Source: Clostridiaceae bacterium (GTDB lineage Bacteria; Bacillota; Clostridia; Saccharofermentanales; DTU023). From it: DNA of 64,000 nucleotides. The notes below the pieces were generated by a model. It was not told the origin of the DNA. It did no database searches and saw only the letters and a list, made by a program, of their open reading frames with translations. Position 1 is the first letter of the stretch; each line of letters opens with the position of its first letter. The position numbers and the translations under genes were made by a program. The stretch spans positions 1 through 64,000 of the forward strand of contig DUOO01000015.1 of the NCBI GenBank assembly GCA_012838795.1, in the 5' to 3' direction. Below, in pieces: positions 4,047 to 49,409 of the stretch.

Positions 4047-4074
4047 CTTTTTAAATATGAGAGGAGTAAAAAGC

Positions 4075-5871: not shown

Positions 5872-5925
5872 TTCCTCAAAAAATCTGTGTTTTATAGAGA
5901 AAACAGTGAATTAAAGATAATTTCA

Positions 5926-5961
5926 GATAGACAAGAAACTTTCAACAGTTTCTTGTCTATC
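5926..5961 (+). repeat. Perfect 15-bp inverted repeat between uidA and the permease gene
   Basis: GATAGACAAGAAACT (5926-5940) and its exact complement (5947-5961) flank a six-base loop. The sequence after it is ATAATTAAAA, with no T-run on either strand, so it is not a standard terminator. It lies 28 bases before the permease start and could be an mRNA processing or stability hairpin, or an operator. Confidence 0.85.
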
Positions 5962-5989
5962 ATAATTAAAACTAATTAAGGAGATATAT

Positions 5990-7321
5990 ATGACAGCAAC
6001 TCAAAAAGAGAAAAAGATGGGTGTATTTGATATCATTGGCGGTATCTTTAAGCCTATTCTCATCGTTATTATCGGAGCAGGCGTTCTGCAGGCGGTACGA
6101 GACGTTCTGGTTCAGGTCGGAGCTATTTCCAAAGTCAGCAGCAGCTATATTTTCTTGGATGGTTTAGGCAATGCGGTATTCTACTTTTTGCCTATTTTCC
6201 TGGCAATTGCCAGTGCGCAGGTATTTAAAGCTACTCCGTTTTTAGCTGCGGCAACGGCTGCTTTTTTACTATATCCAAATATTGTCAATATGTATGAATG
6301 GGCAAACAATGTAGGCTGGAATCTCACATTATTCGGTGCCATACCGATTACCTATGCCAAATATCCAAGCAGTGTTTTGCCGATCATTCTTATCGTTTAT
6401 GTTCAGTCCAAAATAGAGCCGTTATTAAAGAAGATTATCCCGGATTTATTGATGTCTATTTTATTTCCTGTATTGACTTTGTTTGTTACATGTATCAGCG
6501 GAATTATCATTTTGGGACCGATCGGAACTTGGATCGGTGACGCTTTGGCAGCCGGAATTACATGGTTAAATAATACGGTTTCATGGCTTGTACCGACCGT
6601 TGTCGGAGCTATGAGTCCATTCCTTGTTATTACCGGGTCACATTATTCATTGTTCCCGGTTGCTACACAGAACCTGGCTCAATTAGGCTATGATACAGTT
6701 TTAATACCGGGTATGATGGCTTCCAATATGGCACTTGCAGGTGTTTCGTTTGCGATTGCCATTCGCTCCAAACAAAAAATGTATAAGAGTTATAGTGCTT
6801 CTGCCGGAATAACTTCGCTTTTCGGTATTTCACAATCCTCCTTATATGGTAATGCGATTCCCCTGAAAAAACCTTTATATGCTTCGATTATCGGCGGCGG
6901 TATCGGCGGATTCTATGCCGGTATTACAGCGATTAAAGCAAGAAGCTTCGTTACGCCTGGACTGTTAGCTTTAGTCGGTTTCTCAAGTGACACAGGTAAT
7001 CTGATTAATTCGATATTAACCTGTGTAATTTCTTTTGCTGCGACATTTGCTTTAACGATTATTATGGGATTTGAAGAGCCTGATGCCAATACTGTGGCAG
7101 AACTTACCGGTCAGGCTATTTCCGAAGAGGAAAGCTCTGACATGCAAAAAGCTGCGGAAGAAGCAAGAGATACTGCCAGTGAAGCTGAAGTTGCTGCTGC
7201 TGAAATCGGATATGAAGCGGAAAAAGCAACCATCACCAGTGGCGCAACACAACTTGGACAAGATCTTGGTTTAACAGAAAAGGAAGAAAAGTCTGCAGAT
7301 AAACCGGATGCAAAAGAGTAG
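5990..7321 (+). CDS. PTS EIIC-like permease without EIIA or EIIB domains
   Basis: Polytopic membrane protein of 443 residues resembling the EIIC domain of the glucose/glucoside PTS family, with about ten hydrophobic segments up to residue 365. Family signatures include PFLAAATAAFLLYPN (83-97), GSHYSLFPV with the conserved His218, and SLYGNAIPLKKP (284-295). The usual GITEP motif is replaced by GISQS (279-283), so its glutamate is missing. There is no EIIB phosphocysteine domain or EIIA domain in this gene or nearby. The tail (about 370-443) is Ala/Glu-rich, probably cytoplasmic and helical. Lying directly after uidA, it probably imports glucuronides, perhaps without phosphorylation, since UidA acts on unphosphorylated substrate; this is inference. 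The ribosome site is AAGGAG. Confidence 0.8.
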   Translation: MTATQKEKKMGVFDIIGGIFKPILIVIIGAGVLQAVRDVLVQVGAISKVSSSYIFLDGLGNAVFYFLPIFLAIASAQVFKATPFLAAATAAFLLYPNIVNMYEWANNVGWNLTLFGAIPITYAKYPSSVLPIILIVYVQSKIEPLLKKIIPDLLMSILFPVLTLFVTCISGIIILGPIGTWIGDALAAGITWLNNTVSWLVPTVVGAMSPFLVITGSHYSLFPVATQNLAQLGYDTVLIPGMMASNMALAGVSFAIAIRSKQKMYKSYSASAGITSLFGISQSSLYGNAIPLKKPLYASIIGGGIGGFYAGITAIKARSFVTPGLLALVGFSSDTGNLINSILTCVISFAATFALTIIMGFEEPDANTVAELTGQAISEEESSDMQKAAEEARDTASEAEVAAAEIGYEAEKATITSGATQLGQDLGLTEKEEKSADKPDAKE

Positions 7322-7332
7322 TCAGGAGGGAA

Positions 7333-7836
7333 ATGATGAAAAAGATTTCAATTATATTGACCGTCATTTTACTTTTCAGTTTGGTTGGCTGCAGCAAAGC
7401 AGAAAAAAAGGAATTTACCTCACATATACCTCCGGAGACTGCTGAAGTTGGTCAGGATATTCAGATTGATGAAACTAATCATATTGAAATTACTGATATA
7501 AATATTAAAGAATTCGAAGATTCGAAATATGTTGTAATTACCTATGATTGGACTAATGATTCAAAAAGTGCGGCCACATCTGATAAGAGTTTTACAATAA
7601 CGGCTTCTCAGGACGATGTAGGACTGAAGCCCAATTTGAAAGTTGTTGAAGATAAGAAAAAATTGGTAACGCAGATTGAAGGAGGAGAGACTTTAAGCGG
7701 AATGGAGCAAGGTTTTGCTTTACGCAATGAAGAATCACCTGTTATATTATCTATCAAAGGAAAAATGTTCTCAGTATTTATTGATGGGAAACCTCAATCA
7801 GCTTATCCGGTCAAGGTTACAGTAGAGTTACCATAG
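7333..7836 (+). CDS. Predicted lipoprotein, DUF5067-like
   Basis: A 167-residue protein with a lipoprotein signal: MMKKISIIL, a hydrophobic core, and lipobox LVGC (acylated Cys20). The mature part has the pattern VVITYDWTNDSKSA..SFTITASQDD, a beta-rich extracellular fold like that in DUF5067 lipoproteins of Firmicutes; I place it there from memory of the pattern. It starts 11 bases after the permease with a strong AGGAGGG site (ATG at 7333 or 7336), so it is cotranscribed. It may bind or present glucuronides at the membrane, but nothing in the sequence proves this. Confidence 0.7.
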   Translation: MMKKISIILTVILLFSLVGCSKAEKKEFTSHIPPETAEVGQDIQIDETNHIEITDINIKEFEDSKYVVITYDWTNDSKSAATSDKSFTITASQDDVGLKPNLKVVEDKKKLVTQIEGGETLSGMEQGFALRNEESPVILSIKGKMFSVFIDGKPQSAYPVKVTVELP

Positions 7837-7900
7837 TAATATTTGAAAAACCACATAATAATTAATCATAAAATGTGAAATTGCTGAAAGGGATTATATT

Positions 7901-9517
7901 TTGAAATTAAATTTAGATTCAATCAAGAATAAAGAATTATGGGAAGATCAAGGTTTTGAACTTCCGGCTTATGATATTGAAGCAGTAAGAAATAAAACAA
8001 AATGTGAACCTGCTTGGTTACATTTCGGAGCAGGTAATATCTTCAGAATTTTTCCTGCAAGATTGCAAGATGAATTATTAGATAAAGGTGAAGCTGATAC
8101 CGGTATCATTTTTGCAGAAACTTTCAATCCGGACAAAATAGACTATATTTTTAAGCCTTATGATAATTTGAGCACCGCTGTAACCTTAAAGGCTGACGGA
8201 ACGCTTGGCTTGAGAGTAGTTGGATGTTTGGCCGAAGGAGTTAAAGTTGAACAAAATCGTGAAGGTTGGGCAAGAGCGGAAGAATTGTTCTCCCAACCTT
8301 CCTTACAGGTAGTAAGTTTTACCATTACGGAAAAGGGCTACAGTATCGTTGATCATACCGGAGATTATTCTGCTCAAGTAAAAGCGGAGATGCAGAATCC
8401 GGAATTGAAAACAACTAATCCGATGGGCATTGTCTGTCTCTTGCTGTACAAAAGATTTCAGGCAGGAAAATTGCCGCTTACCTTACTTAGTATGGATAAT
8501 GTTTCTCATAACGGGACTAAGTTGAGAGAATCTGTTTTAGCTTATGCAAAATCCTGGACTGAAAACGGTTTTTTGCAGCAAGAGTTCTATGACTATGTTG
8601 CAGATGAATCACTCATCAGTTTCCCGTGGTCAATGATTGATAAAATAACTCCGGTATCGAATGAATCAGTTGCGCGAATGCTGGAAGAGCGTGGCTATGA
8701 AGATGCAGAATGTCCTGTGGTGGAGGGCAGAAAAATGCCGCCCTCATTTGTTAATGCTGAAGAAACAGAATATTTGGTAATTGAAGATAATTTCACCAAC
8801 GGCAGACCTGATTGGGATAAAGCAGGTGTAATTTTTACTGATCGTGAAACGGTAGACAGAGTGGAAACCATGAAAGTAACGACCTGTCTTAATCCGTTGC
8901 ATACAGCATTAGCTGTTTTTGGCTGCTTATTGGGATTCGAGTTAATCAATCAGGAAATGTCGGATGAAGATCTGCTTAATTTGATTAAGGGTGTAGGTTA
9001 TGTTGAAGGTTTACCTGTCGTGGTAGATCCGGGCATTTTGGATCCGAAGACTTTCATTGATACGGTCATAGAGCAACGCTTACCTAATCCGTTTTTGCCG
9101 GATACTCCGCAAAGAATTGCTACAGATACTTCGCAAAAAATCCAAGTCCGATATGGTAAAACCATACAATCATATCTGGATCAAGATCCTGAAAAAATAA
9201 AAGACTTAATCTTTATTCCTGCTGTTTTAGCCGGTTGGTTAAGATATTTGCTTGCAATTGATGATTCAGGGAATGTAATGGAATTATCATCAGACCCTCT
9301 GTTAGAAACTTTGCAGGAACAGCTTAAAACCATAAAATTTATGGACAATGATAATGTTGCTGAAGTTCTGACACCGGTCTTAAGTAATAGCGAAATATTC
9401 GGGATAGACTTGGCAGAATACGGCTTGTCAGACAAAGTCATTCAATATTTTATTGCAATGAATAAGGAGATCGGAGCCGTTCGACGGTTTTTACAGTCTT
9501 TACCTCGCGCTGATTAA
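7901..9517 (+). CDS. uxuB: D-fructuronate reductase (mannitol dehydrogenase family)
   Basis: Long-chain polyol dehydrogenase of 538 residues that reduces D-fructuronate to D-mannonate with NADH. The N-terminal Rossmann segment contains WLHFGAGNIFRIF (residues 39-51). The C-terminal catalytic part has MKVTTCLNPLHTALAVFGCL at about residue 324-343, the site where the family carries its substrate and catalytic residues, and VVVDPGILDPK. Fructuronate reductase rather than mannitol dehydrogenase is chosen because uxuA, uxaC and kdgK adjoin it. Translation starts at TTG 7901, with GAAAGGGA upstream. Confidence 0.9.
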   Translation: MKLNLDSIKNKELWEDQGFELPAYDIEAVRNKTKCEPAWLHFGAGNIFRIFPARLQDELLDKGEADTGIIFAETFNPDKIDYIFKPYDNLSTAVTLKADGTLGLRVVGCLAEGVKVEQNREGWARAEELFSQPSLQVVSFTITEKGYSIVDHTGDYSAQVKAEMQNPELKTTNPMGIVCLLLYKRFQAGKLPLTLLSMDNVSHNGTKLRESVLAYAKSWTENGFLQQEFYDYVADESLISFPWSMIDKITPVSNESVARMLEERGYEDAECPVVEGRKMPPSFVNAEETEYLVIEDNFTNGRPDWDKAGVIFTDRETVDRVETMKVTTCLNPLHTALAVFGCLLGFELINQEMSDEDLLNLIKGVGYVEGLPVVVDPGILDPKTFIDTVIEQRLPNPFLPDTPQRIATDTSQKIQVRYGKTIQSYLDQDPEKIKDLIFIPAVLAGWLRYLLAIDDSGNVMELSSDPLLETLQEQLKTIKFMDNDNVAEVLTPVLSNSEIFGIDLAEYGLSDKVIQYFIAMNKEIGAVRRFLQSLPRAD

Positions 9518-9646
9518 TCCGAAATGGAATAGTCTTAAGCTTATGAAGCATATAATGAAGTTAAACTGAAGTTTACTTCAAATGTTAAATAATGAAAAAT
9601 ACTTAAAAATATAAAATTGATTTTAATTAAAAGGAGGATATGCTAA

Positions 9647-10723
9647 ATGAAAATGACTTTTCGGTGGTACGGAGAAGGAAACGATCCGATACCGCTAAAG
9701 TATATCAAACAAATTCCGAATTGTTCGGGTCTCATGGGAGTTTTAGATCAATATGCCGCAGGCGAAGTTTGGCCTGAAGATGTAATTGCCGATTATGTAA
9801 AACACGTAAATAATGCAGGTCTTGAAGTGGAAGTCATTGAATCGGTAAATGTTCATGAAGATATCAAATTAGGACTTCCGACCAGAGACCAATATATTGA
9901 AAATTACATTACTACAATCAGAAATTTAGCAAAACACGGTATCAAAGTAATTGTGTATAATTTCATGCCGGTTTTTGATTGGTTGCGTACTGATTTAGCG
10001 AGAGATATTCCGGAAGACGGTTCAAATTCTTTATTTTATGATGAACAGGAACTTTTGGGCATGACACCCCAAGAAATAGTTAAGCAAACTACTGAAAATG
10101 CAGGCTTTACTTTGCCTGGCTGGGAACCTGAACGCTTAGCTGATTTGGATCGTGTTATGAAATTATACGAAGATGTAAGTCCGGAACAGTTGTTAGAGAA
10201 TTATAAATATTTCTTGCAAGCTATTATACCGGTATGTGAAGAAGTCGGTATCAGAATGGGAGTGCATCCTGATGATCCGGCTTGGCCTATTTTCGGTTTG
10301 CCGCGGATTGTTCATAATAAAGAACAATTAAAAGCTATTTTGAATTTAGTGGACAGTCCTGCTAACAGTCTCTGTTTCTGCACCGGTTCACTAGGCTCAA
10401 ATCCGGATAATGACATTCCTGCCATGCTGCGTTATTTCAGTGAAAAAGATCGGGTAGCTTGCGTGCATCTCAGAAACGTTAAATATTTGGGTGAACGTTG
10501 TTTCCGTGAAGCCAGTCATCTCTCAGCTGACGGGGATCTCGATATGTATGAAATAGTAAGAGCTTTATACGAAACCGGATTTGATGGTTATGCCCGGCCT
10601 GATCACGGCAGAATGATTTGGGATGAAAAAGGACGTGCGGGCTACGGACTGTATGATCGGGCACTTGGCATTACTTATCTGAACGGTTTATGGGAAGCCT
10701 TGGAAAAAGGAGATAAGATTTAA
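9647..10723 (+). CDS. uxuA: Mannonate dehydratase
   Basis: Xylose-isomerase-like TIM barrel of 358 residues that dehydrates D-mannonate to 2-keto-3-deoxy-D-gluconate. The start [24 protein letters not shown] is the typical UxuA N terminus. Other family blocks are [34 protein letters not shown] (metal-binding His), [19 protein letters not shown], and [13 protein letters not shown] near the end. An AAGGAGG site precedes the ATG. Its stop overlaps the ATG of the aldolase gene by one base (TAATG), indicating translational coupling. Confidence 0.97.
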
Positions 10724-11352
10724 TGTATCAATTATTAGAGGGACATGGAGTTGTCCCGGTAATTAAATTCAGTGATGTCAGTGAAGCTCTACCTTTAGCA
10801 GATGCCTTATCTGCAGGTGGCATAAATATTATGGAGATTACATTTCGTAGTGATGCTGCCTATGATGCTATCAAAAGAGTGGCTGCAGAAAAACCGGAGA
10901 TTCTGGTAGGTGCCGGAACAGTTGTCAATTTAGCGCAACTTGAACAGGCGATTGATGCGGGTGCAAAATTTGTCGTTAGTCCGGGTTTTGATCCGGAAAT
11001 CGTCGAGGCCGGTTTAAAAGCAGGGGTAATCATGTTGCCGGGTGTCATTACACCAAGTGAAATAATGGCTGCGATGAAGTTAGGGTTAACTGTCTTAAAA
11101 TATTTCCCCGCATCTGTTTTCGGCGGACTCAAAGCTATTAAGACCTATGCAAGCGTTTTTGGCGGTGTGAAATTTATGCCGACAGGCGGAGTTTCTGCAG
11201 CTAATTTAGCGGAATTTTTAGCTGTACCCAATATCCAGGCTTGTGGCGGTTCGTGGATGTGTTCGGCTGATTTGATCAAAGAACAAAAATGGGATGAAAT
11301 TACCAAGTTGTCTGCAGAAGCTACAATTATTTACAAAACAGTTAGAGGCTAA
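10723..11352 (+). CDS. eda: KDPG/KHG aldolase
   Basis: Class I aldolase of 209 residues that cleaves 2-keto-3-deoxy-6-phosphogluconate to pyruvate and glyceraldehyde 3-phosphate. Visible motifs are MEITFRSDAA (catalytic Glu), VGAGTV, the Schiff-base lysine in TVLKYFPAS, and the phosphate-binding MPTGGVS. It overlaps uxuA by one base and precedes the KDG kinase, matching the pathway order in reverse. Confidence 0.95.
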   Translation: MYQLLEGHGVVPVIKFSDVSEALPLADALSAGGINIMEITFRSDAAYDAIKRVAAEKPEILVGAGTVVNLAQLEQAIDAGAKFVVSPGFDPEIVEAGLKAGVIMLPGVITPSEIMAAMKLGLTVLKYFPASVFGGLKAIKTYASVFGGVKFMPTGGVSAANLAEFLAVPNIQACGGSWMCSADLIKEQKWDEITKLSAEATIIYKTVRG

Positions 11353-11382
11353 AAATCTTTTAGCTTGAAAGAGAGGAATTCA

Positions 11383-12471
11383 ATGGATTTAAAAGTTAAA
11401 GATCGTGATTCTTGCAAGTATGATCAGTTTTCTTTAGGTGAAGTTATGTTAAGGCTTGATCCGGGTGATGGCAGAATACGTACTGCACGTCATTTCACTG
11501 CCTGGGAAGGAGGCGGAGAGTATAATGTAGCAAGAGGTTTGCGTCGCTGTTTCGGAATGCGTACCGGTATAGTTACAGCTCTGGCTAAAAATGACATCGG
11601 TTATTTAATTGAAGACTTTATACTGCAAGGCGGATTAGATACTTCATATATTCAATGGATGGATTTTGATGGCATCGGCAGAAAATCAAGAAACGGAATT
11701 AATTTTACTGAACGTGGTTACGGTGTACGTGGTGCACTGGGTGTATCCGATAGGGCAAATACTGCGGTAAGTCAAATTAAACCGGGTATGATCGATTGGG
11801 AAAAATTGTTTGGTGAAGAAGGTGTACGCTGGTTCCATACAGGCGGAATCTATGCCGCTTTATCTGAAGATGCTGCTGCAGTTGTCATAGAGGCAGTAAC
11901 TACCGCACATAAATACGGTACAATAACCAGTTATGACTTAAACTACAGACCGTCCTTATGGAATGCAATCGGCGGTTTGGAACGTTGTCAGGCAGTCAAC
12001 AAAGAAATTGCGTCACACATTGATGTTATGATCGGTAATGAGGAAGATTTTCATGCCTGTCTCGGTTTGGAGATTGAAGGTGATCTGAAAGAACTCAATT
12101 TGGATAGTTATCGCAAAATGTTGAAAAATGCATCTGAAGCATATCCCAACTTTAAAGTTATCGGCAACAGTTTACGTACTGTACATACGGCAACCGATAA
12201 TGATTGGTCGGCATTCTGCTATGCAGACGGCGAAATTTATAAAGCCAGACAATATGATCATCTGGAAATTTTTGATCGTGTCGGTGGCGGCGACAGTTTT
12301 GCTTCCGGTTTAATCTACGGTTTAATGACGACCGGAGATCCTGAAATTGCTGTTAATTACGGTGCGGCTCACGGTGCACTTGCTATGACGACGCCGGGTG
12401 ATACAACCATGGCACGTAAAGAAGAAGTTGAAGCCTTAATGGGCGGAGGCAGCGCGAGAGTAGTCAGATAG
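11383..12471 (+). CDS. kdgK: 2-keto-3-deoxygluconate kinase (PfkB family)
   Basis: Ribokinase-fold sugar kinase of 362 residues. The N-terminal FSLGEVMLRLDPGDGRI and GGGEYNVARGLRRCFG blocks and the C-terminal signature DRVGGGDSFASGLIYG (catalytic Asp in GGGDS) are clear. It should phosphorylate 2-keto-3-deoxygluconate, the product of UxuA and, once phosphorylated, the substrate of Eda. The ATG at 11383 has GAGAGGA upstream; a TTG at 11365 without a ribosome site is less likely. It ends the first part of the operon, before a terminator-like hairpin. Confidence 0.9.
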   Translation: MDLKVKDRDSCKYDQFSLGEVMLRLDPGDGRIRTARHFTAWEGGGEYNVARGLRRCFGMRTGIVTALAKNDIGYLIEDFILQGGLDTSYIQWMDFDGIGRKSRNGINFTERGYGVRGALGVSDRANTAVSQIKPGMIDWEKLFGEEGVRWFHTGGIYAALSEDAAAVVIEAVTTAHKYGTITSYDLNYRPSLWNAIGGLERCQAVNKEIASHIDVMIGNEEDFHACLGLEIEGDLKELNLDSYRKMLKNASEAYPNFKVIGNSLRTVHTATDNDWSAFCYADGEIYKARQYDHLEIFDRVGGGDSFASGLIYGLMTTGDPEIAVNYGAAHGALAMTTPGDTTMARKEEVEALMGGGSARVVR

Positions 12472-12511
12472 ACAGTTTTGTAAAAAGTTATCGACTATTT
12501 TATAATTTATG

Positions 12512-12592
12512 GTCCTGCTAAAGCAAATAGAATTATGAATAAGTATTTCTTGCATTGAAAGTTCTTTTTGCTTTAGCGGACTTTGTTTTATT
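12512..12592 (+). terminator. Probable terminator between kdgK and uxaC
   Basis: GTCC-T-GCTAAAGCAAA (from 12512) pairs with TTTGCTTTAGCGGAC (up to about 12581) with one bulged base and a long loop of roughly 40 bases, then TTTGTTTTATTT. The long loop makes efficiency uncertain. It may partly separate uxaC from the upstream genes. Confidence 0.55.
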
Positions 12593-12674
12593 TATCAAAT
12601 CAATAAGATACTGTGCGGTAAAACGATCTGTTTAAAAAATTTATATCGTGTTTGATAATTTAAATGGAGATACT

Positions 12675-14084
12675 ATGAAAAAGTTTTTGGACGAAGATTT
12701 TATGTTGAATTCGCATTCTGCAACTGTTCTTTATCATGAATATGCAGAAAAAATGCCGATAATAGATTTTCATAATCATTTAGAGCCACGAGAAATATAC
12801 GAAGATAAACAGTTTTCTGATATTTCTGAGTTGTGGCTGGGAGGCGATCATTATAAGTGGCGTTTAATGCGTGCTTTTGGTATTCCCGAAGAGCAAGTAA
12901 CCGGAAATGCAGCACCATATGATAAGTTTCTGGCTTATGCCAGGATGATTCCTTATACAATCGGCAATCCGGTTTTCCATTGGACACATTTGGAACTGGC
13001 AAGATATTTCGGTATTACTGATATTCTTTCGGAAAAAACTGCAGCTAGGATTTATGCCGAATGTAATGAAATGCTTAAATCTGCGGAATTTTCTGTAAGA
13101 AATCTTTTGTCACGTATGAATGTTAAAGCATTATGTACCACGGATGATCCGACTTCTGATTTGAAATATCATCTGGCAATGAGAGATGAAGGATTTTCAA
13201 TTAAAGTCTTGCCGACATTCAGACCGGAACGGGCAATGGCAATTGAAAAATCGGATTTTGTCGATTATATTTCAAAATTAGCCACAAGTGCAGGGATGAC
13301 AAAAATCGAAACTATTACCGATTTAGAAAATGCTTTGCTTAAACGGATAGAATTTTTTGCTGCTGTCGGTTGTAGAATCAGTGATCACAGTCTGGATGCC
13401 GAATTATTTTCGGAAGCTTCTCCTGAGAAGGCAAATCTGGTCTTGCAAAAAGCTTTGCGCGGTGAAAGTCTGAGCTCAAATGAAAGAAGAAGTTATAAAG
13501 GATATTTACTATCTTTCTTGGGTAAAGCATATTACGATCACGGGTTAATTATGCAGTTGCATATCGGTGCGATCCGCAATAATTCTCAGCGGATGTATGA
13601 ACTGTTGGGAGCTGATAAAGGTTATGATTCAATGGACGATTTCAATTATGCGGCTCAATTATCGGGTTTATTGAATGAGCTCGATTTAGCAGACAAAATG
13701 CCTTACTCTATCATGTATTGTCTAAACGGTAAAGAAAACGATATGCTGGCTACGATGATTGCAAATTTTCAAGGTGGCGGTGTTAAGGGGAAATTACAAT
13801 TAGGCTCTGCCTGGTGGTTTTTGGATCATAAAAGAGGTATGTTCAATCAAATGGAAGCATTTGCCAATAATGGTTTGATCGCTACTTTTGCCGGTATGGT
13901 AACCGATTCAAGATCTTTTTTATCCTTTCCGAGACATGAATATTTTCGCAGAACACTCTGCGATTTTTTAGGCGGCTTGATTGATCGCGGTGAATATCCT
14001 GCCGATTACGAATTTGTCGGCAGCATTGTTCAAGACATTTGTTATAACAATATAAATAAGATGATGTTTAAGCCGAAAAAATAA
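12675..14084 (+). CDS. uxaC: Glucuronate isomerase
   Basis: Amidohydrolase-superfamily uronate isomerase of 469 residues, matching the family length of about 470. It converts D-glucuronate to D-fructuronate, the first step after UidA. Metal-binding IIDFHNHLEPREIY is at residues 25-38. Further blocks are HWTHLELARYFGI, CTTDDPTSDL, LQLHIGAIRNN (bases 13553-13583), LGSAWWFLDHKRGM and TDSRSFLSFPRHEYFRRTLC near the end. The ATG at 12675 has TGGAGA upstream; a GTG at 12648 without such a site would add nine residues. Confidence 0.96.
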   Translation: MKKFLDEDFMLNSHSATVLYHEYAEKMPIIDFHNHLEPREIYEDKQFSDISELWLGGDHYKWRLMRAFGIPEEQVTGNAAPYDKFLAYARMIPYTIGNPVFHWTHLELARYFGITDILSEKTAARIYAECNEMLKSAEFSVRNLLSRMNVKALCTTDDPTSDLKYHLAMRDEGFSIKVLPTFRPERAMAIEKSDFVDYISKLATSAGMTKIETITDLENALLKRIEFFAAVGCRISDHSLDAELFSEASPEKANLVLQKALRGESLSSNERRSYKGYLLSFLGKAYYDHGLIMQLHIGAIRNNSQRMYELLGADKGYDSMDDFNYAAQLSGLLNELDLADKMPYSIMYCLNGKENDMLATMIANFQGGGVKGKLQLGSAWWFLDHKRGMFNQMEAFANNGLIATFAGMVTDSRSFLSFPRHEYFRRTLCDFLGGLIDRGEYPADYEFVGSIVQDICYNNINKMMFKPKK

Positions 14085-41475: not shown

Positions 41476-41772
41476 ATGAGCAGAGAAACAGGTGAACCGA
41501 TGCGTTTAATATTTCTAGATTTTATCAATATTGAAGATAAAATATCTTTACATGATTATTTGATCGAAAAATTTAATCTGCCGGATTATTATGGCAGAAA
41601 CTTAGATGCTCTATGGGATTGCCTGATGGAAATTTCCGACTATACCTTAATTGAAATGCAAAATATTTTTGCTTTATACGGAAAACTGGGAGATTATTCA
41701 GCCAAGTTTCTCAAAACCCTGGATGATGCAGCTCTCGAAAACTCATACATCTGGCTAAAAGTATTAGAATAG
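41476..41772 (+). CDS. Barstar-family protein
   Basis: A 98-residue protein (90 if the second ATG at 41500 is used). The block FNLPDYYGRNLDALWDCLMEISDYTLIEMQN matches the barnase-inhibitor signature (in barstar LPEYYGENLDALWDCL). The protein is acidic, with the conserved Asp and Glu/Asn that contact RNase. No barnase-like RNase gene lies nearby. Both ATGs have weak ribosome sites (AGGAA and GGTGA). It ends four bases from the convergent HAD gene. Confidence 0.88.
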   Translation: MSRETGEPMRLIFLDFINIEDKISLHDYLIEKFNLPDYYGRNLDALWDCLMEISDYTLIEMQNIFALYGKLGDYSAKFLKTLDDAALENSYIWLKVLE

Positions 41773-42848: not shown

Positions 42849-43895
42849 ATGACTTTGTTTGAAGTTACTCAATATGATAGAGAAATTTATGAAAGAAAAA
42901 TCAAAAATTATTTACCGGAAAACATAATAGATATTCACACTCATGTGTACCAAAAATATGATTCTAAGATTCTTGGCGATCAATCCAGAACGGTGAGTTG
43001 GCCAAATAAAGTTGCACAAGAGAATCCGGTTGAAGATATTATTAAAACATATGAATTAATGTTTCCCGATAAAAATGTAGTTCCGTTAATGTTTATGGAT
43101 GCAAAAAAAGCTGATCAGGCATTTCGTGATCAAGGAAATGCTTATTGCAGGCATGTTTCGGAAGAGACCGGATTTCCTGCACTATATTTCTCTCATCCAA
43201 TAGAAGAACCTGAAGAATTGGAACAAAAAGTAATTTCCGGAGGTTTCTTAGGTCTTAAATCTTATCTCAATCTTGCTCCTGATTATTTACCGGTCAATGA
43301 AATACGAGTATTTGATTTTTTCCCGAAAAGTCAATTAGCTGTTGCGGATAAAAATAAATGGATCATAATGCTGCACATTCCTCGTGACGGACGTTTGGGT
43401 GATGAAGTAAATTTGGCTCAGATTCAAGAAATTGCGGCAGAATTTCCAAATTTAAAGTTAATCATCGCTCATGTCGGCAGAGCATATTGTCCTGAGAACA
43501 TCGGGAACGGTATGAAAGTGTTGAGTGAACTTCCGAATGTGTATGTAGATTTCTGTGCTAACTGCAATCAATATGTTTTTGAAGAACTAATTAAAGCCGT
43601 TGGACCAAAGAGAATTCTGTTTGGCAGTGACCTTCCGATATTGAGAATGAGAACGAGAAGAATATGTGAAAACGGTACATACATTAATTTAGTTCCGCCG
43701 GGATTATACGGAGATGAATCAGTTGATCCGCATTTAAGAGAAGTCAGTGAACAAGAAGCAGAAAAAATTACATTTTTCTTATATGAAGAGATCATTGCAT
43801 TCCTGGAGGCATCACGCCAAGTTGGATTAAATAATGAGGATATAGAGCGAATTTTCTATGGTAATGCCAAAGAATTGCTTGATAGTTTTAAGTGA
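42849..43895 (+). CDS. Amidohydrolase-family (amidohydrolase 2) protein
   Basis: Protein of 348 residues with a metal-dependent TIM barrel. IIDIHTHVYQK (26-36) is the HxH metal site. LKSYLNLAP, WIIMLHIPRDGRLGD (His), LKLIIAHVGRAYCPEN (His) and RILFGSDLPILRMR (catalytic Asp) follow in the usual order. Relatives are hydrolases, decarboxylases and lactonases. Being first in a cluster with a sugar kinase and isomerase, it may open a sugar lactone or remove a side group; this is inference. TTAGGAGA precedes the ATG. Confidence 0.88.
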   Translation: MTLFEVTQYDREIYERKIKNYLPENIIDIHTHVYQKYDSKILGDQSRTVSWPNKVAQENPVEDIIKTYELMFPDKNVVPLMFMDAKKADQAFRDQGNAYCRHVSEETGFPALYFSHPIEEPEELEQKVISGGFLGLKSYLNLAPDYLPVNEIRVFDFFPKSQLAVADKNKWIIMLHIPRDGRLGDEVNLAQIQEIAAEFPNLKLIIAHVGRAYCPENIGNGMKVLSELPNVYVDFCANCNQYVFEELIKAVGPKRILFGSDLPILRMRTRRICENGTYINLVPPGLYGDESVDPHLREVSEQEAEKITFFLYEEIIAFLEASRQVGLNNEDIERIFYGNAKELLDSFK

Positions 43896-43938
43896 AAGAT
43901 TAATTTTAGTTAAAAATAAATGTTTTTGGGAATGAGAT

Positions 43939-45429
43939 ATGTACGGTTTGTTAGGAATTGATGTTGGTACCAGCGCTGTTAAAAGCTCTTTGTTTACAAC
44001 AAAAGGGGTCCTTTTAGGGACAGAAAGTTTTGAATATCCCACAATATATAATGATTATGGGCTGGTCGAGCAGAATCCTGAAGATTGGTGGAAAGGTATA
44101 GTAGTTACTGTTAACAAGTTGTTAGAAGACAATAAGATTAATGTTGTGGCATTAGCAATGTCTACCCAGGGAGGCACTTTAGTACCGGTAGATTCTGATA
44201 ACAATCCTACGCACCCGGCGATTGTATGGAGTGATGAAAGATGCAAAACGGCCAGATCAAAGATTTTAGAGAAATTTACAGAAGATGAAATATACGAAAT
44301 AACAGGTTGGAGGTTAAGTTCAGGCTTAAATTTACTGCAAATTTTAGAATTGAAAATAAATAATCGAAGTGTATTTGATAAAACAGTGTCATTTTTGTCC
44401 GTACCGGATTATTTGGCAGTTAAGTTAACAGGTAAATGTGTCATAGACTTCTCCAATGCTGGCATCAATCAACTCTATGATGTCAGAGATAATAAATGGA
44501 GCAAAGTTTTACTTGATTTTGCGGGAATCAGTGAAAATCAATTAGCTCAGTTGTCTGACTCCGGAATTGTTATCGGTAAAATAAAAAGAGAAGTAATCAA
44601 AGAGCTTGGCATATCTTCAGATGCGGTCTTAGTTACCGGTGGTCATGATCAATACTGTGCCGCATTGGGTGCTGGTTTGACCAATCCCGGTGATGTTTTG
44701 ATCGGATCGGGGACAGCGTGGACAGTAAATCTGCCGACGAAACTTCCCAAGGTTGATGTCAATTCAGGGAATACATTCAGTAGACACGTCATACCGGGAT
44801 TGTACGGTACGCTGATATCTTTAAGTTTTGGCGGTCAATCATTAGAGTGGTTCAGAACTTTATTATTAAATAATAGAAAAAGTGACTTCTCTCTTTCGTA
44901 TAAAGTTATTGATGAAAACGTCGGGAAAAGAAATATTGATCGGCAGTTGATTTTTATACCGTTTTTCAATGGTATTTCTCATAAGATTAACTGTCCGGAA
45001 CTAAGCGCCGGATTCTTAGGAATTAAATCAGGACATGATGCCTACGATTTAATACGAGCGATTATGGAAAGTGTTGCAATGTATGCAGCCTATCTGATTA
45101 CTATACTTTCAGATAACGGTATAGTAAACAAGGTAGTTTTGACTGGCGGAGCAGGGAATAGTGATGTCTGGGTAAAGATGGTGGCTGATACTCTTAATCT
45201 TCCTGTCATTGTACCAAATAATAAAAATGCCTCTTCCAGAGGAGCTGCGATGTTGGCAGGAATCGGAGCCGGCATATTTACCAATCACCAAGAAGCAATA
45301 GATGTGTTTTTAAATGAAACAAATGTAAAAGAGAAGATCATTTATCCTGGTAAGAATCATCAATTAATGTTTAAAAAGCAGAAACTATTTATTGAGATGT
45401 TGGAACATCTAACGATATTTTACAAGTAG
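43939..45429 (+). CDS. FGGY-family carbohydrate kinase
   Basis: Kinase of 496 residues, actin-like fold. GIDVGTSAVKSSLF (6-19) is the phosphate-1 loop, and EQNPEDWWKGIV, MSTQGGTLVPVD and AIVWSDERC match xylulokinase-type members. TGGHDQYCAALGAG contains the catalytic Asp, and VVLTGGAGNSDVWVKMVADTLNLPV is the adenosine motif. Substrate (ketose or polyol) cannot be read from sequence. It follows the amidohydrolase gene after 43 bases. Confidence 0.92.
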   Translation: MYGLLGIDVGTSAVKSSLFTTKGVLLGTESFEYPTIYNDYGLVEQNPEDWWKGIVVTVNKLLEDNKINVVALAMSTQGGTLVPVDSDNNPTHPAIVWSDERCKTARSKILEKFTEDEIYEITGWRLSSGLNLLQILELKINNRSVFDKTVSFLSVPDYLAVKLTGKCVIDFSNAGINQLYDVRDNKWSKVLLDFAGISENQLAQLSDSGIVIGKIKREVIKELGISSDAVLVTGGHDQYCAALGAGLTNPGDVLIGSGTAWTVNLPTKLPKVDVNSGNTFSRHVIPGLYGTLISLSFGGQSLEWFRTLLLNNRKSDFSLSYKVIDENVGKRNIDRQLIFIPFFNGISHKINCPELSAGFLGIKSGHDAYDLIRAIMESVAMYAAYLITILSDNGIVNKVVLTGGAGNSDVWVKMVADTLNLPVIVPNNKNASSRGAAMLAGIGAGIFTNHQEAIDVFLNETNVKEKIIYPGKNHQLMFKKQKLFIEMLEHLTIFYK

Positions 45430-45470
45430 TTTTAATGTAATAGTATAACAAGAGGACGGAGAAGAGATAC

Positions 45471-46172
45471 ATGAAAAAATTACCTGCATCACCATTTTTT
45501 GAAACAAGTGTCAAAAATTATATCTATGGACAAGACGCTATCGACTATGCATTAGCGGTTGAAGAAGCAGCAAACAAATATGATGTAGATGCTTTGTTCA
45601 TTTCACCTTTAACGGAAATTCGAACAATAGCTGAAAAAACCGAACGTTTAATTATCATAGCCGCCTATATGGATCCGATCAGACCCGGCAGAGGTATCGC
45701 GGATATTTTGCCTGAAGCAATCAAAGCGGCGGGTGCCCACGGGGTATTACTCAATCATATTGAGAAGCCGATGTCATTAAAACAAATTGAAGCAACTATC
45801 ATCAGGGCCAATGAACTGGATTTAATATCATTTGCCTGCGCTGATTCAATTGCTGAAGCTAGGGCGATTGCTCAGTTCAATCCGGATATTATTAATCCGG
45901 AACCGTCTGAGTTGATTGGCTCAGGTCAAGCAAGTGACATGACATACGTTATTAAAACATTAGAGGAGGTAAAGAAAGTATCACCGGATATTTTAGTCGA
46001 ACAAGCAGCAGGTATTACTAAAAGCAGTCAAATATATGATTTCATCATGGCGGGTAATGACGGAGCCGGTTCAGCATCCGGTATCTTAAAATCACCGGAT
46101 CCATATGCGTTGCTTGATGAAATGATTTATTACGTAAGTTTAGCAAAAAAAGAATTAAACAAAGTCAAATAA
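45471..46172 (+). CDS. Archaeal-type triosephosphate isomerase homologue
   Basis: TIM-barrel protein of 233 residues that lines up with the short archaeal class of triosephosphate isomerase. SVKNYIYGQ has the N-terminal Lys. AAYMDPIRPGRGIADILPEAIKAAGAHGVLLNHIEKP carries the catalytic His in LLNH. The catalytic Glu is in NPEPSELIGSG, and the phosphate-binding part is EQAAGITKSSQ and GNDGAGSASGI. A glycolytic TIM of the bacterial type would be 250 residues and in the gap-pgk operon, so this is probably a specialised isomerase for a tri- or tetrulose phosphate produced by the cluster; that is inference. Confidence 0.8.
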   Translation: MKKLPASPFFETSVKNYIYGQDAIDYALAVEEAANKYDVDALFISPLTEIRTIAEKTERLIIIAAYMDPIRPGRGIADILPEAIKAAGAHGVLLNHIEKPMSLKQIEATIIRANELDLISFACADSIAEARAIAQFNPDIINPEPSELIGSGQASDMTYVIKTLEEVKKVSPDILVEQAAGITKSSQIYDFIMAGNDGAGSASGILKSPDPYALLDEMIYYVSLAKKELNKVK

Positions 46173-46185
46173 GCGGAGAAGATAA

Positions 46186-46686
46186 ATGAAAATATTTAAT
46201 CATATTATTAATTGCAGTTCAACCGGAAAACGTCCCACTTTTCATAATCTGTCGGAAGAGATCCGTGAGTTTGTGAAAAATACAGGAACAGAGAATGGAC
46301 AATGTTTAGTCTATTCACGCCATACTACTTGTGCAATTCTCATAGACGAAGAATCTTTTGATAAATCATATTCAGGTTTAACTTTTCTCCAGCAAGACTT
46401 AGTGGATGTTTTTGAGAAAACAATTCCTACTTGCAGGAAGGAAGGTCAATATATGCATCCGGGCCCCGAACTGACTATTTTTGCTGCCGAACATGGAGAA
46501 GATAAAGAAGGAACCTTAAATACCGATGCACATCTTCGTTCTTCAATTGTCGGCCGCAGTGAAGTAATTCCGATTATTGACGGGAAATTAATATTAGGTG
46601 ATTTCGGAAATGTGTATTTCATTGATTTTGATCAGACACGAGCCCGAGATCGAGAAGTGATTGTCCAAGTTATTTCATTTGAATGA
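46186..46686 (+). CDS. YjbQ-family protein (UPF0047)
   Basis: Protein of 166 residues. HTTCAILIDEES (47-58), NTDAHLRSSIVGRSEVIPIIDGKLILGDFGNVYFIDFDQTRARDREVIVQV are the two family signatures, with conserved His and Asp residues clustered as in a metal site. Family members complement a thiamine-phosphate synthase defect weakly, and their true role is unclear. It is longer than the usual 130-140 residues by an insert around 60-100 (YSGLTFLQQDLVDVFEKT). It is placed between an isomerase and a NagB-like gene, 13 bases after the former. Confidence 0.88.
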   Translation: MKIFNHIINCSSTGKRPTFHNLSEEIREFVKNTGTENGQCLVYSRHTTCAILIDEESFDKSYSGLTFLQQDLVDVFEKTIPTCRKEGQYMHPGPELTIFAAEHGEDKEGTLNTDAHLRSSIVGRSEVIPIIDGKLILGDFGNVYFIDFDQTRARDREVIVQVISFE

Positions 46687-46723
46687 AATGACTGTATATA
46701 AAGAAATCAGAGAAGGAGTTTTT

Positions 46724-47680
46724 ATGAATAAAGAATTTAATTTTAGTCCTGCAACATGGTTGCCGAAATTTGAGCCGGAAGTTCTTGATTATGTTCGTAA
46801 TATTAAGCGGGAAGACATGGAATATACCAATGAAAACGGTTACAGTGTCAAAGTTGTAATGGATCCTGTTTTACATTTGGTAATGGATATGTTTCACAGA
46901 ATTTATTTGAGTGATGTTGAGGATAAATCATTTACGATGATATGCCCCAATTCATGGGCCGGTTCTTATTCAGCAATTGCAAATATGATAAATAAATATA
47001 ATGTAAATTGTCGGAATGTACATGCTTTTGCAATGGATGAATGGGCAGATGAAGACGGCAATGTAGCTCCGTTAACTTATGGTGCAGGTTTAGGCTATTC
47101 GTTCAGAAAACATTTTTATGAACAGATAAGAGAAGATTTACGTCCGCCGGTCGAACAATGGCATGTTTTCACAAATGAAAATAAGGGTGACGATGTTTAT
47201 TCCGAATTAATCGAAGAAGCTGGTGATGGCGGAGCGGATGTAGTATATTCAGCTACCGGGTGGCCGGGACATACAGCATTTATAGATCCGGGAACAGAGG
47301 CATTTAAAGCGGATAGTCTCGAAGAATACATAAAGATAGGCTCGCGTTTGGTCGAACAACATCCGCTGACAATTGCTGAAAATTCTTTATTCAATTCAGC
47401 CGGCGCATCAGGTGATGTATGGGGAGTACCGCCGAAAGCAGTAACAATCGGACCAAGGGATATTGTGAATGCACGTGAAAGTGTGGAGGTACATTCTTTT
47501 GTAAATCCGGGTGGTGATTCTTGGCAAAGAATGGCCTCCAGATTGCAACTTTACGGACCGATTACCATGGAATGTCCGGCAACGATCTTACGTTTAGGTA
47601 AAGGTACTTGTTATGTAAGTGAAGCTATTGCCAGACCGTTCAGTGCCTGGACAGCAGGTTTGGAAAACAAGGATTTATAA
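46724..47680 (+). CDS. NagB-like sugar isomerase/deaminase superfamily protein
   Basis: Protein of 318 residues related to glucosamine-6-phosphate deaminase. AFAMDEWADEDGN matches the MDE motif, and GWPGHTAFIDPGTEAF matches the GHIAFNEPG motif; both lie in the Rossmann-like sugar-phosphate isomerase fold. The catalytic Asp of the GEDGHI motif is replaced (GWPGHT), and the Glu in NEP is Asp, so ordinary GlcN6P deamination is doubtful. At 318 residues it is longer than NagB (about 240-265). The ATG at 46724 has GAAGGAG upstream; the open frame runs from 46661 into the yjbQ gene. No nagA gene accompanies it. Confidence 0.75.
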   Translation: MNKEFNFSPATWLPKFEPEVLDYVRNIKREDMEYTNENGYSVKVVMDPVLHLVMDMFHRIYLSDVEDKSFTMICPNSWAGSYSAIANMINKYNVNCRNVHAFAMDEWADEDGNVAPLTYGAGLGYSFRKHFYEQIREDLRPPVEQWHVFTNENKGDDVYSELIEEAGDGGADVVYSATGWPGHTAFIDPGTEAFKADSLEEYIKIGSRLVEQHPLTIAENSLFNSAGASGDVWGVPPKAVTIGPRDIVNARESVEVHSFVNPGGDSWQRMASRLQLYGPITMECPATILRLGKGTCYVSEAIARPFSAWTAGLENKDL

Positions 47681-47717
47681 TTATTATTTTCAGGTTACGC
47701 GATAGCTAACCGGAATT

Positions 47718-47746
47718 TCTGCTATTTTCATTTATGGAATAGCAGA
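47718..47746 (+). repeat. 9-bp hairpin after the NagB-like gene
   Basis: TCTGCTATT (47718-47726) and AATAGCAGA (47738-47746) flank an 11-base loop and are followed by TATTTAC, only mildly T-rich. It could be a weak terminator dividing the cluster before the cyclase gene, which is 185 bases beyond the previous stop. Confidence 0.5.
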
Positions 47747-47865
47747 TATTTACATATTGCAGTAAAAAATTCCTGAATGAACAGAAGTAAACTGAAGAAA
47801 AGTGGTTTACCATATCGATGAGCAAACTGCTATAAGTTTAAACAATCAAAAGAGAGGTGATAAAA

Positions 47866-48540
47866 ATGATATTGGATATCACGGGAGTTATTGAGGAAGG
47901 TATGTGGAATTATGACTATCCATATCCTGAAATTAATATCAAACCTTTACCAAAAGTAGATTGGGTTGACGGAGAAGTTTTCAGTGAAATTTTTGAAGGA
48001 TTACATTCTCAAACCGGTACTTATTTAGAAACACCTGCTCATTATTTTGGAAATAACAATAGTTACTTATTAATTGATGTACCCGTAGAAAAATTAGTTT
48101 CGATTGATTGTACTGTCTTACAGGTAGCAGATTATAATATTGAAGATTTAAACAACCGGCCGGCAATCACTTTGGAAGATTTGTTAACCTGTGAAGGTGC
48201 GGAAGAAATTGAAGAAGGCAATGCTATTGTTGTAGGTACAGGCTGGGGAAAATACTGGAAACATAAAGATTACTTAAATTTATCTCCATTTTTTAAGAGA
48301 GAAGCAATAGAATGGATTATAAGCAAAAAACCTTTGCTTTTAGGTTCTGATCTTGCCAGGTGGGAAAACCTGGAAAAGCCGGAAGGCTTTTTTCCTGCTT
48401 TCTATAAGGCGGATATTTTAATGGCGGGGCCATTTATCAATATTGAAAAAATAGAAAAAACCAAGTGTAAGCTTACTATTTTACCGTTAAAAGTAGTCAG
48501 AACCAGTTGTGCGCCTTGCAGAGCAATAGTTGAGTATTGA
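47866..48540 (+). CDS. Cyclase-family protein (PF04199-like) with altered metal motif
   Basis: Protein of 224 residues of the kynurenine formamidase-like family. LDITGVIEEGMWNYDYPYPEI is the typical N terminus. The usual metal-binding motif H-x-G-T-H-x-D-x-P-x-H reads Q-T-G-T-Y-L-E-T-P-A-H: two of the histidines and the Asp differ. VVGTGWGKYW and KKPLLLGSDLARWEN match the downstream blocks. Metal-bound hydrolase activity is therefore uncertain. ATG 47866 has GAGAGGTGA upstream. It precedes the regulator gene and is probably part of the cluster. Confidence 0.75.
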   Translation: MILDITGVIEEGMWNYDYPYPEINIKPLPKVDWVDGEVFSEIFEGLHSQTGTYLETPAHYFGNNNSYLLIDVPVEKLVSIDCTVLQVADYNIEDLNNRPAITLEDLLTCEGAEEIEEGNAIVVGTGWGKYWKHKDYLNLSPFFKREAIEWIISKKPLLLGSDLARWENLEKPEGFFPAFYKADILMAGPFINIEKIEKTKCKLTILPLKVVRTSCAPCRAIVEY

Positions 48541-48632
48541 TATAATTATTAACTCAATGGCGCTCAATGGCAGAAAATCAATCTAATTCAGTTGTATGAT
48601 CATTAATTTGGTTTTTCCGGGAGAAGAGTAAA

Positions 48633-49409
48633 GTGAAAAGAAATTTAAAAAACATAATAATTGATTATTTACATCAGTACGGAAAACTTAAGAATAATGA
48701 TGCAGTTGAATTATTAGATGTTTCCTTATCAACTGTACGTAGATTAATGATTGAGCTTGAAGAGCAAAATTTAGTTACCAGAATCCATGGTGGAGTTCAG
48801 TTGAATGGAGATGTGAGCAGATACCTTTTTAGTGAGAAGGAATTAAAAAATGCAAATCAGAAAATTGCGATTGCTGATTTTGCTGCAAATAATTTGATTG
48901 ATGATCAAGATGTAATATATTTGGACAGCGGTACTACTATTAAGCAATTGGCATTAGCAATTTCGAGAAATTTGTTGTCGGATAATTTAAAAGAACTCAC
49001 CGTCATTACTAATTCTTTAGCTAACATGGAAATACTAAATGACTTTTGCGAAGTTATTTTAATTGGCGGTATATATAGGGAAAAAAGAAAGGATTTTGCC
49101 GGTTTTGCAACAGAACGTTTTCTGGAGTGTTTTAACTATCAAAAAGCTTTTTTCGGTGCGGACGGTTTTGATATTTCAACCGGGTATTCCGGCAATGATC
49201 CTTTAACTGCATCGATTAATGAGACTGTAAAAGCCCGTACGAGTTGTAAACATGTTTTGATAGATAGCAGTAAGTTTAATACAATAGGATTTGTATCTTA
49301 TGCATCTGTAGCTGATATAGATATTTTGATCACAGATGAAAATATCACTGCGGAAAAAAGAAGTCAGTTAGAAGAGAATAACATTAAATATTATGCAGTT
49401 GAGTTGTAA
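48633..49409 (+). CDS. DeoR/GlpR-family transcriptional regulator
   Basis: Protein of 258 residues. The N-terminal winged helix reads IIDYLHQYGKLKNNDAVELLDVSLSTVRRLMIELEEQNLVTRIHGGVQL (residues 9-57), the typical DeoR signature. The C-terminal sugar-phosphate-binding domain has IYLDSGTT, TVITNSLANMEIL, LIGGIYREKRKDFAG, KAFFGADGFD and HVLIDSSKF. DeoR proteins repress adjacent sugar genes and release in the presence of phosphorylated sugars. It likely controls 42849-48540. The start is GTG 48633. Confidence 0.93.
   Translation: MKRNLKNIIIDYLHQYGKLKNNDAVELLDVSLSTVRRLMIELEEQNLVTRIHGGVQLNGDVSRYLFSEKELKNANQKIAIADFAANNLIDDQDVIYLDSGTTIKQLALAISRNLLSDNLKELTVITNSLANMEILNDFCEVILIGGIYREKRKDFAGFATERFLECFNYQKAFFGADGFDISTGYSGNDPLTASINETVKARTSCKHVLIDSSKFNTIGFVSYASVADIDILITDENITAEKRSQLEENNIKYYAVEL

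Follow-up and report, generated by a model that had tools for sequence, protein, structure and literature searches.

A seven-gene locus in a 64,000-nucleotide stretch of the genome of a gut-type Clostridiaceae bacterium (GenBank assembly GCA_012838795.1, contig DUOO01000015.1, positions 1 to 64,000; hereafter the window) contains two neighboring genes, for an archaeal-type triosephosphate isomerase (TIM) homologue and for a long form of the YjbQ/UPF0047 family, that recur side by side in sugar-catabolism clusters of several phyla. A preliminary description had assigned the seven same-strand genes to an uncharacterized phosphorylated-sugar pathway without a known name. The open reading frames and profile searches bear out the genes, their coordinates and their families, and the literature that we searched likewise names no such pathway. 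We propose that these genes form a conserved type of sugar-catabolism operon, as yet without a name, in which the TIM-like protein and YjbQ shift the carbonyl group of a ketose phosphate stepwise, and we hold this reading with slightly less than even confidence. The YjbQ family is widespread and represented by several crystal structures; its physiological role is unsettled, and databases label it a thiamine enzyme. The two-gene module offers a specific candidate function for it in sugar-phosphate metabolism, one that is simple to assay. The earlier interpretation as a whole is partly supported, and the result gains interest over its first description, since a two-gene module, with a testable place for YjbQ, has been isolated from the set.

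The TIM-like and long YjbQ genes are an almost obligate pair. Even draws of 249 and of 398 genomes were taken from the phylum. In the smaller draw, TIM-like genes were present at nine places in eight genomes, long YjbQ genes were present at nine places in exactly those eight, and the two were adjacent at every place; the remaining YjbQ matches were short generic forms scoring 45-47 bits. The larger draw held TIM-like genes at 13 places in 12 genomes, 13/13 beside a long YjbQ. A search with the TIM-like protein in named genomes provided 80 loci anchored on this gene. YjbQ lies within 1.5 kb of it in 72 of the 80 and within 100 bp in 54, and some of the remaining loci stop at a contig edge. The distance matrices of the two proteins are correlated at r = 0.79, a value uncorrected for the species tree, as compared to 0.16 for the best of 2000 permutations. 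The pair is also carried on plasmids of Enterococcus, Lacticaseibacillus and Shinella and was further seen in Lactobacillales, Alphaproteobacteria, Bacteroidales, Treponema and Lentisphaeria; a DNA-level search of plasmids with the locus gave no match. In these groups the pair has a kinase or phosphotransferase system (PTS) on one side and, on the other, an isomerase or aldolase for sugar phosphates. Since this placement between sugar-phosphorylating and sugar-phosphate enzymes extends across several phyla, it suggests that YjbQ acts on sugar phosphates and not in vitamin B1 synthesis. YjbQ had earlier been noted as embedded in the cluster, which is correct but understates its pairing with the TIM-like gene. 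Two loci contain duplicated YjbQ genes: in the relative G013, two different paralogues, which share 51% and 44% identity with the window YjbQ, flank the TIM-like gene (L026:3479-5328), and in L056 two YjbQ genes lie side by side.

The TIM-like protein (45471..46172, + strand, 233 aa) scores 148 bits to the NCBIfam model PRK04302, for which the cut-off is 132. It shares its sequence family, the catalytic Lys/His/Glu triad and the phosphate-loop glycines with archaeal triosephosphate isomerases (1HG3, 2H6R, 1W0M), but differs from them in the replaced Asn of the N-x-K motif, in its YjbQ partner, in its sugar-operon context, and in the presence of a canonical TIM elsewhere in the genome. Alignment of 75 TIM-like homologues demonstrated that Lys15, His96 and Glu144 are kept in all 75, that the phosphate-loop Gly/Ser residues are conserved with nearly all loop glycines in place, and that the N-x-K Asn position is Gly in 62, Asn in 9 and Ser in 4, with Ser in the window protein. 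The preliminary description had counted two enzymes with changed active-site motifs, which holds in part: the loss of the Asn in the TIM-like protein stands, while its catalytic residues and the MDE and GH motifs of the NagB-like protein are intact. A separate canonical TIM scoring 308 bits is encoded on another contig of the same genome (C47). In a tree, the window TIM-like protein groups with the sequences of what we call type I clusters (17 rows, support 100/100), nearest to those of G013 and a Christensenella metagenome-assembled genome. We propose that the TIM-like protein is a ketose-phosphate isomerase distinct from glycolytic TIM. It could instead be an ordinary extra TIM that handles dihydroxyacetone phosphate (DHAP) released by an aldolase, with YjbQ as an accessory or repair protein. 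The NCBIfam label of triose-phosphate isomerase agrees with this idea, as does the class-II (DHAP-type) aldolase that Lactobacillales and several clostridia encode upstream of the pair. However, most clusters, the window's included, lack a DHAP-forming aldolase, the active-site Asn is changed in 66/75 homologues, and the obligate YjbQ is left unexplained. We regard this role as improbable, and an extra glycolytic TIM was rejected because the genome has a canonical TIM elsewhere and the Asn is mostly replaced. The canonical TIM itself (G000 contig C47:23202-23930) lies within a 652-aa open frame and is possibly part of a fusion such as PGK-TIM.

YjbQ (46186..46686, + strand, 166 aa) scores 89 bits to TIGR00149 (cut-off 67.75). 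The long form has the same fold as other members of YjbQ/UPF0047 (1VMF, 1VMJ, 1XBF, 2P6C) and the same three conserved histidines, H46, H91 and H116, which are present in short YjbQ too and suggest a metal site. It differs in being about 30 residues longer, in having a YxHPGP motif and extra conserved Arg/Cys residues, and in never standing away from a TIM-like gene in the surveys made. An AF2 model of the long form (pLDDT 90) matched only YjbQ structures in a fold search, at TM-scores of 0.7-0.9; these are entries without known function, and the search returned no relative of known mechanism. NCBI names the family "secondary thiamine-phosphate synthase", and the sole activity reported for it is a weak thiamin-phosphate synthase activity (Morett et al. 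2008, cited in PMC11551756). YjbQ might therefore make thiamin phosphate, or be a promiscuous bystander whose gene order is historical. The window genome has no ThiE, which is ambiguous by itself, since the short generic YjbQ that is also encoded there could serve. The long form, in contrast, was found only beside a TIM-like gene, in many sugar contexts and phyla, and no thiamine genes were seen in the clusters listed. A thiamine role was rejected as the main explanation on this gene context, and we judge it highly improbable. Our literature search found no link of YjbQ to sugar catabolism or to TIM.

About 15 other clostridial genomes have clusters related to that of the window. We define a type I cluster as one with the PF04909 amidohydrolase (AmdH), an FGGY kinase, the TIM-like gene and YjbQ and, in many cases, an aldose isomerase at another position. 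Sister operons of uncultured Clostridia carry AmdH, FGGY, DeoR and TIM-YjbQ, often plus an AraA-like isomerase and DUF4432, and three of them (L049, L051, L055) also carry a NagB-like gene whose product is 68% identical to the window's. In G013 the order is AmdH-FGGY-YjbQ-TIM-YjbQ, and an ATP-binding cassette (ABC) transporter lies at a distance of some kilobases, with cyclase and NagB-like genes after it, the latter 69% identical to that of the window. The window genome itself has a second TIM-YjbQ cluster (L024; G000 contig C40:48000-67999), with an RbsABC-type transporter, a SIS isomerase, a NagA-like, two NagB-like and a ceramidase-like protein, a FucI-like isomerase, an FGGY kinase and a DeoR regulator. 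Another genome shows the order ABC-FGGY-zinc alcohol dehydrogenase-TIM-YjbQ-SIS. The assignment to a phosphorylated-sugar pathway is well supported by these homologous clusters, which carry AraA-/FucI-like aldose isomerases, DUF4432 (aldose-epimerase-like), polyol dehydrogenases, PTS or ABC transporters, FSA, RPE and SIS isomerases. As previously described, no transporter gene lies near the window set.

The search for the same gene order in other genomes found it in many, so that the refuting condition set in the preliminary description, an order seen nowhere else, fails; TIM-YjbQ are the constant neighbors, and a PTS or ABC system is the transporter. Across this family of pathways the pair stays the same while the entry and exit enzymes change. 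At the entry side, an FGGY kinase is present in 57/80 loci; the other entry systems are a fructose-type, Gat-type or sorbitol-type PTS, the last named by eye from sequence. At the exit side, a SIS isomerase is present in 52/80 loci; the other exit enzymes are true 6-phospho-3-hexuloisomerase (PHI) with RPE, FSA, or a class II aldolase. Enzymes of ketohexose-6-phosphates track SIS: FSA is found in nine loci, all with SIS (p 0.023), and RPE in seven, all with SIS (p 0.09). SIS is nearly always missing from clusters with AmdH (p 1e-6) or with AraA-like proteins of the L-arabinose isomerase family (p 7e-4). These p-values are descriptive only, because the contrasts were picked post hoc and the loci are related.

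For the route we infer the position that the FGGY kinase phosphorylates, the reaction of the TIM-like protein, and the pentose level of the window cluster. A ketose derived from an aldose, a polyol or an amino-sugar derivative would be phosphorylated by the kinase on the carbon next to the carbonyl to give a ketose-1-phosphate. Because the phosphate site is kept, TIM chemistry on this longer substrate would shift the carbonyl one carbon further, away from the phosphate end (R-CHOH-CO-CH2OP to R-CO-CHOH-CH2OP), in the manner of TIM on DHAP and of EryH, the erythritol-pathway isomerase described below, on tetruloses. YjbQ would then act on the product, and we hypothesize from its place in the gene and reaction sequence that it most probably shifts the carbonyl once more. 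With a pentulose, two such shifts would yield an ordinary pentulose-5-phosphate that can enter the pentose-phosphate pathway, and this fits clusters without SIS such as that of the window; the genome encodes transketolase. Hexose clusters would require one further shift, made by a SIS isomerase (KdsD/GutQ-like, or true PHI). More tentatively than the operon-level proposal, YjbQ would then be a new family of sugar-phosphate isomerases which, with the TIM-like protein (and PHI/SIS for hexoses), walks a ketose-1-phosphate to a ketose-5- or ketose-6-phosphate numbered from the other end. If this is true, each shift erases one stereocenter and sets another, such that rare or L-sugars would become ordinary pentose-phosphate or glycolytic intermediates whatever their starting configuration. 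It would also be a new route for the use of rare sugars, and would account for many sugar clusters from the gut and from anaerobes in which the two genes currently carry the labels triosephosphate isomerase and thiamine synthase.

The clusters with PHI are the most informative and illustrate the hexose version. In L125, L127 and L128 the gene order is TIM, YjbQ, SIS/PHI, RPE. True PHI follows TIM-YjbQ in the two that were scanned, L125 and L128 (205-208 bits, cut-off 160); L127 is a short contig whose SIS protein was likened to PHI by eye only. A fructose-type PTS lies beside TIM-YjbQ-PHI-RPE in L125, where it is complete, and in L128, and no FruK (1-phosphofructokinase) was seen within these two loci. 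PHI (HxlB), known from the ribulose monophosphate pathway, converts 3-hexulose-6-phosphate to fructose 6-phosphate. Hexulose-6-phosphate synthase (HPS, HxlA) remained below cut-off in all three PHI-type genomes (G067, G203, G217), the best score being 26.6 bits vs 200, and these relatives are therefore not read as a formaldehyde pathway. Since PHI needs a 3-hexulose phosphate, another source is required, which the TIM-like and YjbQ steps on a ketohexose-1-phosphate would supply. Fructose-type PTS act on ketohexoses such as tagatose (PMC10101011). A ketohexose-1-phosphate made by the PTS would be carried by the two steps to a 3-hexulose-6-phosphate numbered from the other end, and PHI would then form a ketohexose-6-phosphate, which RPE can epimerize.

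A close known parallel is the Brucella erythritol pathway, which employs the kinase EryA, the dehydrogenase EryB, the racemase EryC, the 3-tetrulose-4-phosphate isomerase EryH and EryI, with EryH converting D-3-tetrulose-4-phosphate to D-erythrulose-4-phosphate (PMC5468441, PMC11508834). Common to both systems are a sugar kinase and, in our case only as a proposal, two successive isomerases, the first of which shifts the carbonyl by one carbon from the CH2-O-phosphate end. EryH is reportedly homologous to TIM, and EryI to RpiB (Barbier et al. 2014). In the clusters studied here, the TIM-like protein is archaeal-type and YjbQ appears instead of EryI. The full erythritol set was not found, as the window has the kinase and the TIM-like gene but neither a dehydrogenase nor an EryC-like gene. 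The Shinella version comes closer, with a dehydrogenase, an EryC-type PF01261 protein, and YjbQ in the place of EryI; the plasmid loci L037 and L041 carry a short-chain dehydrogenase (SDR), a PF01261 epimerase, TIM-like, YjbQ and FGGY genes, with an ABC transporter and DhaKL near. Alternatively, both proteins might act on a sugar phosphate, with YjbQ in the job of EryC as an epimerase, racemase or mutarotase. The association data apply equally to such a role, the erythritol pathway requires a racemase besides its isomerase, and the suggested H46/H91/H116 metal site could serve either chemistry. Nevertheless, the Shinella cluster already has its EryC-type protein and the PHI clusters already have RPE as an epimerase besides YjbQ, and PHI would still require a carbonyl at C3. 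We consider an epimerase role for YjbQ unlikely.

Several points weigh against the stepwise carbonyl shift that we propose. The literature searched contains no measured activity for any enzyme of this subfamily, and the one activity reported for YjbQ is the thiamin-phosphate synthase noted above. The position phosphorylated by an FGGY kinase is not readable from sequence. In clusters with a class-II aldolase, the shifts would need to run in reverse or the pair would need another role. In the common clusters, the SIS protein that was scanned is nearer to KdsD/GutQ, which convert a ketose to an aldose, than to PHI. FucI-like isomerases do not significantly track SIS (p 0.71) and were dropped as a marker of hexose-type clusters, and the association contrasts are post hoc, as stated above. 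Finally, AmdH, the NagB-like, NagA-like and ceramidase-like proteins, and the cyclase hint at an N-acyl, amino-sugar or lactone step that the carbonyl shifts do not explain.

These additional enzymes have features of their own. AmdH (42849..43895, + strand, 348 aa), a PF04909 amidohydrolase superfamily member by profile search and characteristic of type I clusters, has D28, H30, H32, H176, H208 and D261 invariant across 16 homologues. Its AF2 model (pLDDT 90) aligns with decarboxylases, hydratases and lactonases of the PF04909 type at a TM-score of about 0.5, a range too broad to choose a function by structure. The NagB-like protein (46724..47680, + strand, 318 aa) has no Pfam match and scores 25-26 bits to NagB models with cut-offs of 237-326. 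It belongs to the superfamily of glucosamine-6-phosphate deaminase NagB and has the MDE and GH motifs in common with it, but is about 60 residues longer; D106, E107, G183 and H184 are invariant in 27 sequences. The residue preceding GH is Pro, where E. coli NagB has Asp, a change that means less because the solved NagB structure 2bkv is also without that Asp. NagB-like and NagA-like genes co-occur in 29 of the 34 loci with either (p 4e-16), and NagB-like and ceramidase-like genes likewise co-occur (p 1e-10). Together with the M20 hydrolase gene adjoining the NagB-like and cyclase genes in G013, this co-occurrence favors degradation of an N-acylated amino sugar by the window cluster, in which AmdH and the cyclase would strip an acyl group or ring amide, the NagB-like protein would deaminate, and kinase-TIM-YjbQ would take the resulting ketose. 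The NagB-like protein is far under the NagB cut-offs, however, and the window operon has no NagA-like gene. Such a pathway is compatible with the carbonyl shifts as their upstream half, and we rate it as somewhat unlikely. In L089, L103 and other loci, NagA-like and NagB-like genes are again accompanied by a protein with weak similarity to ceramidase (PF04734, below cut-off).

The remaining members of the set are the FGGY kinase (43939..45429, + strand, 496 aa), the PF04199 "cyclase"-family metal hydrolase (47866..48540, + strand, 224 aa) and a DeoR-family repressor, the presumed regulator (48633..49409, + strand, 258 aa). Both Pfam domains of the kinase, FGGY_N and FGGY_C, are over cut-off; the nearest models are xylulokinase and gluconokinase, and no equivalog cut-off is reached (best XylB, 265.5 vs 380). 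In 37/80 loci a DeoR gene is found no more than 8 kb from the TIM-like gene. The intergenic gaps are, in order, 43, 41, 13, 37, 185 and 92 nt, the NagB-like start being the ATG at 46724 behind AGAAGGAG and not the upstream TTG. With only 13-43 nt between them, AmdH through NagB-like look like one five-gene transcription unit, and the cyclase and DeoR genes probably belong with it. A shared strand proves little by itself, and the recurrence of the same genes together elsewhere carries more weight. The 185-nt gap between the NagB-like and cyclase genes contains a stable hairpin at 47714..47750 on the + strand, an inverted repeat with 13-nt arms (z -3.5) and no clear T-run, which is likely a transcript boundary or processing site. 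Promoter and terminator scans gave matches no more numerous than in shuffles. The genes flanking the set are a HAD gene in divergent and a TrpR-related gene in convergent orientation. Elsewhere in the window, a Barstar-family protein (41476-41772; PF01337, 66 bits) has no obvious barnase-type neighbor gene, and a lone PTS EIIC protein (5990-7321; PF02378), without IIA or IIB, lies inside an apparent beta-glucuronide/uronate cluster at 4057-14084.

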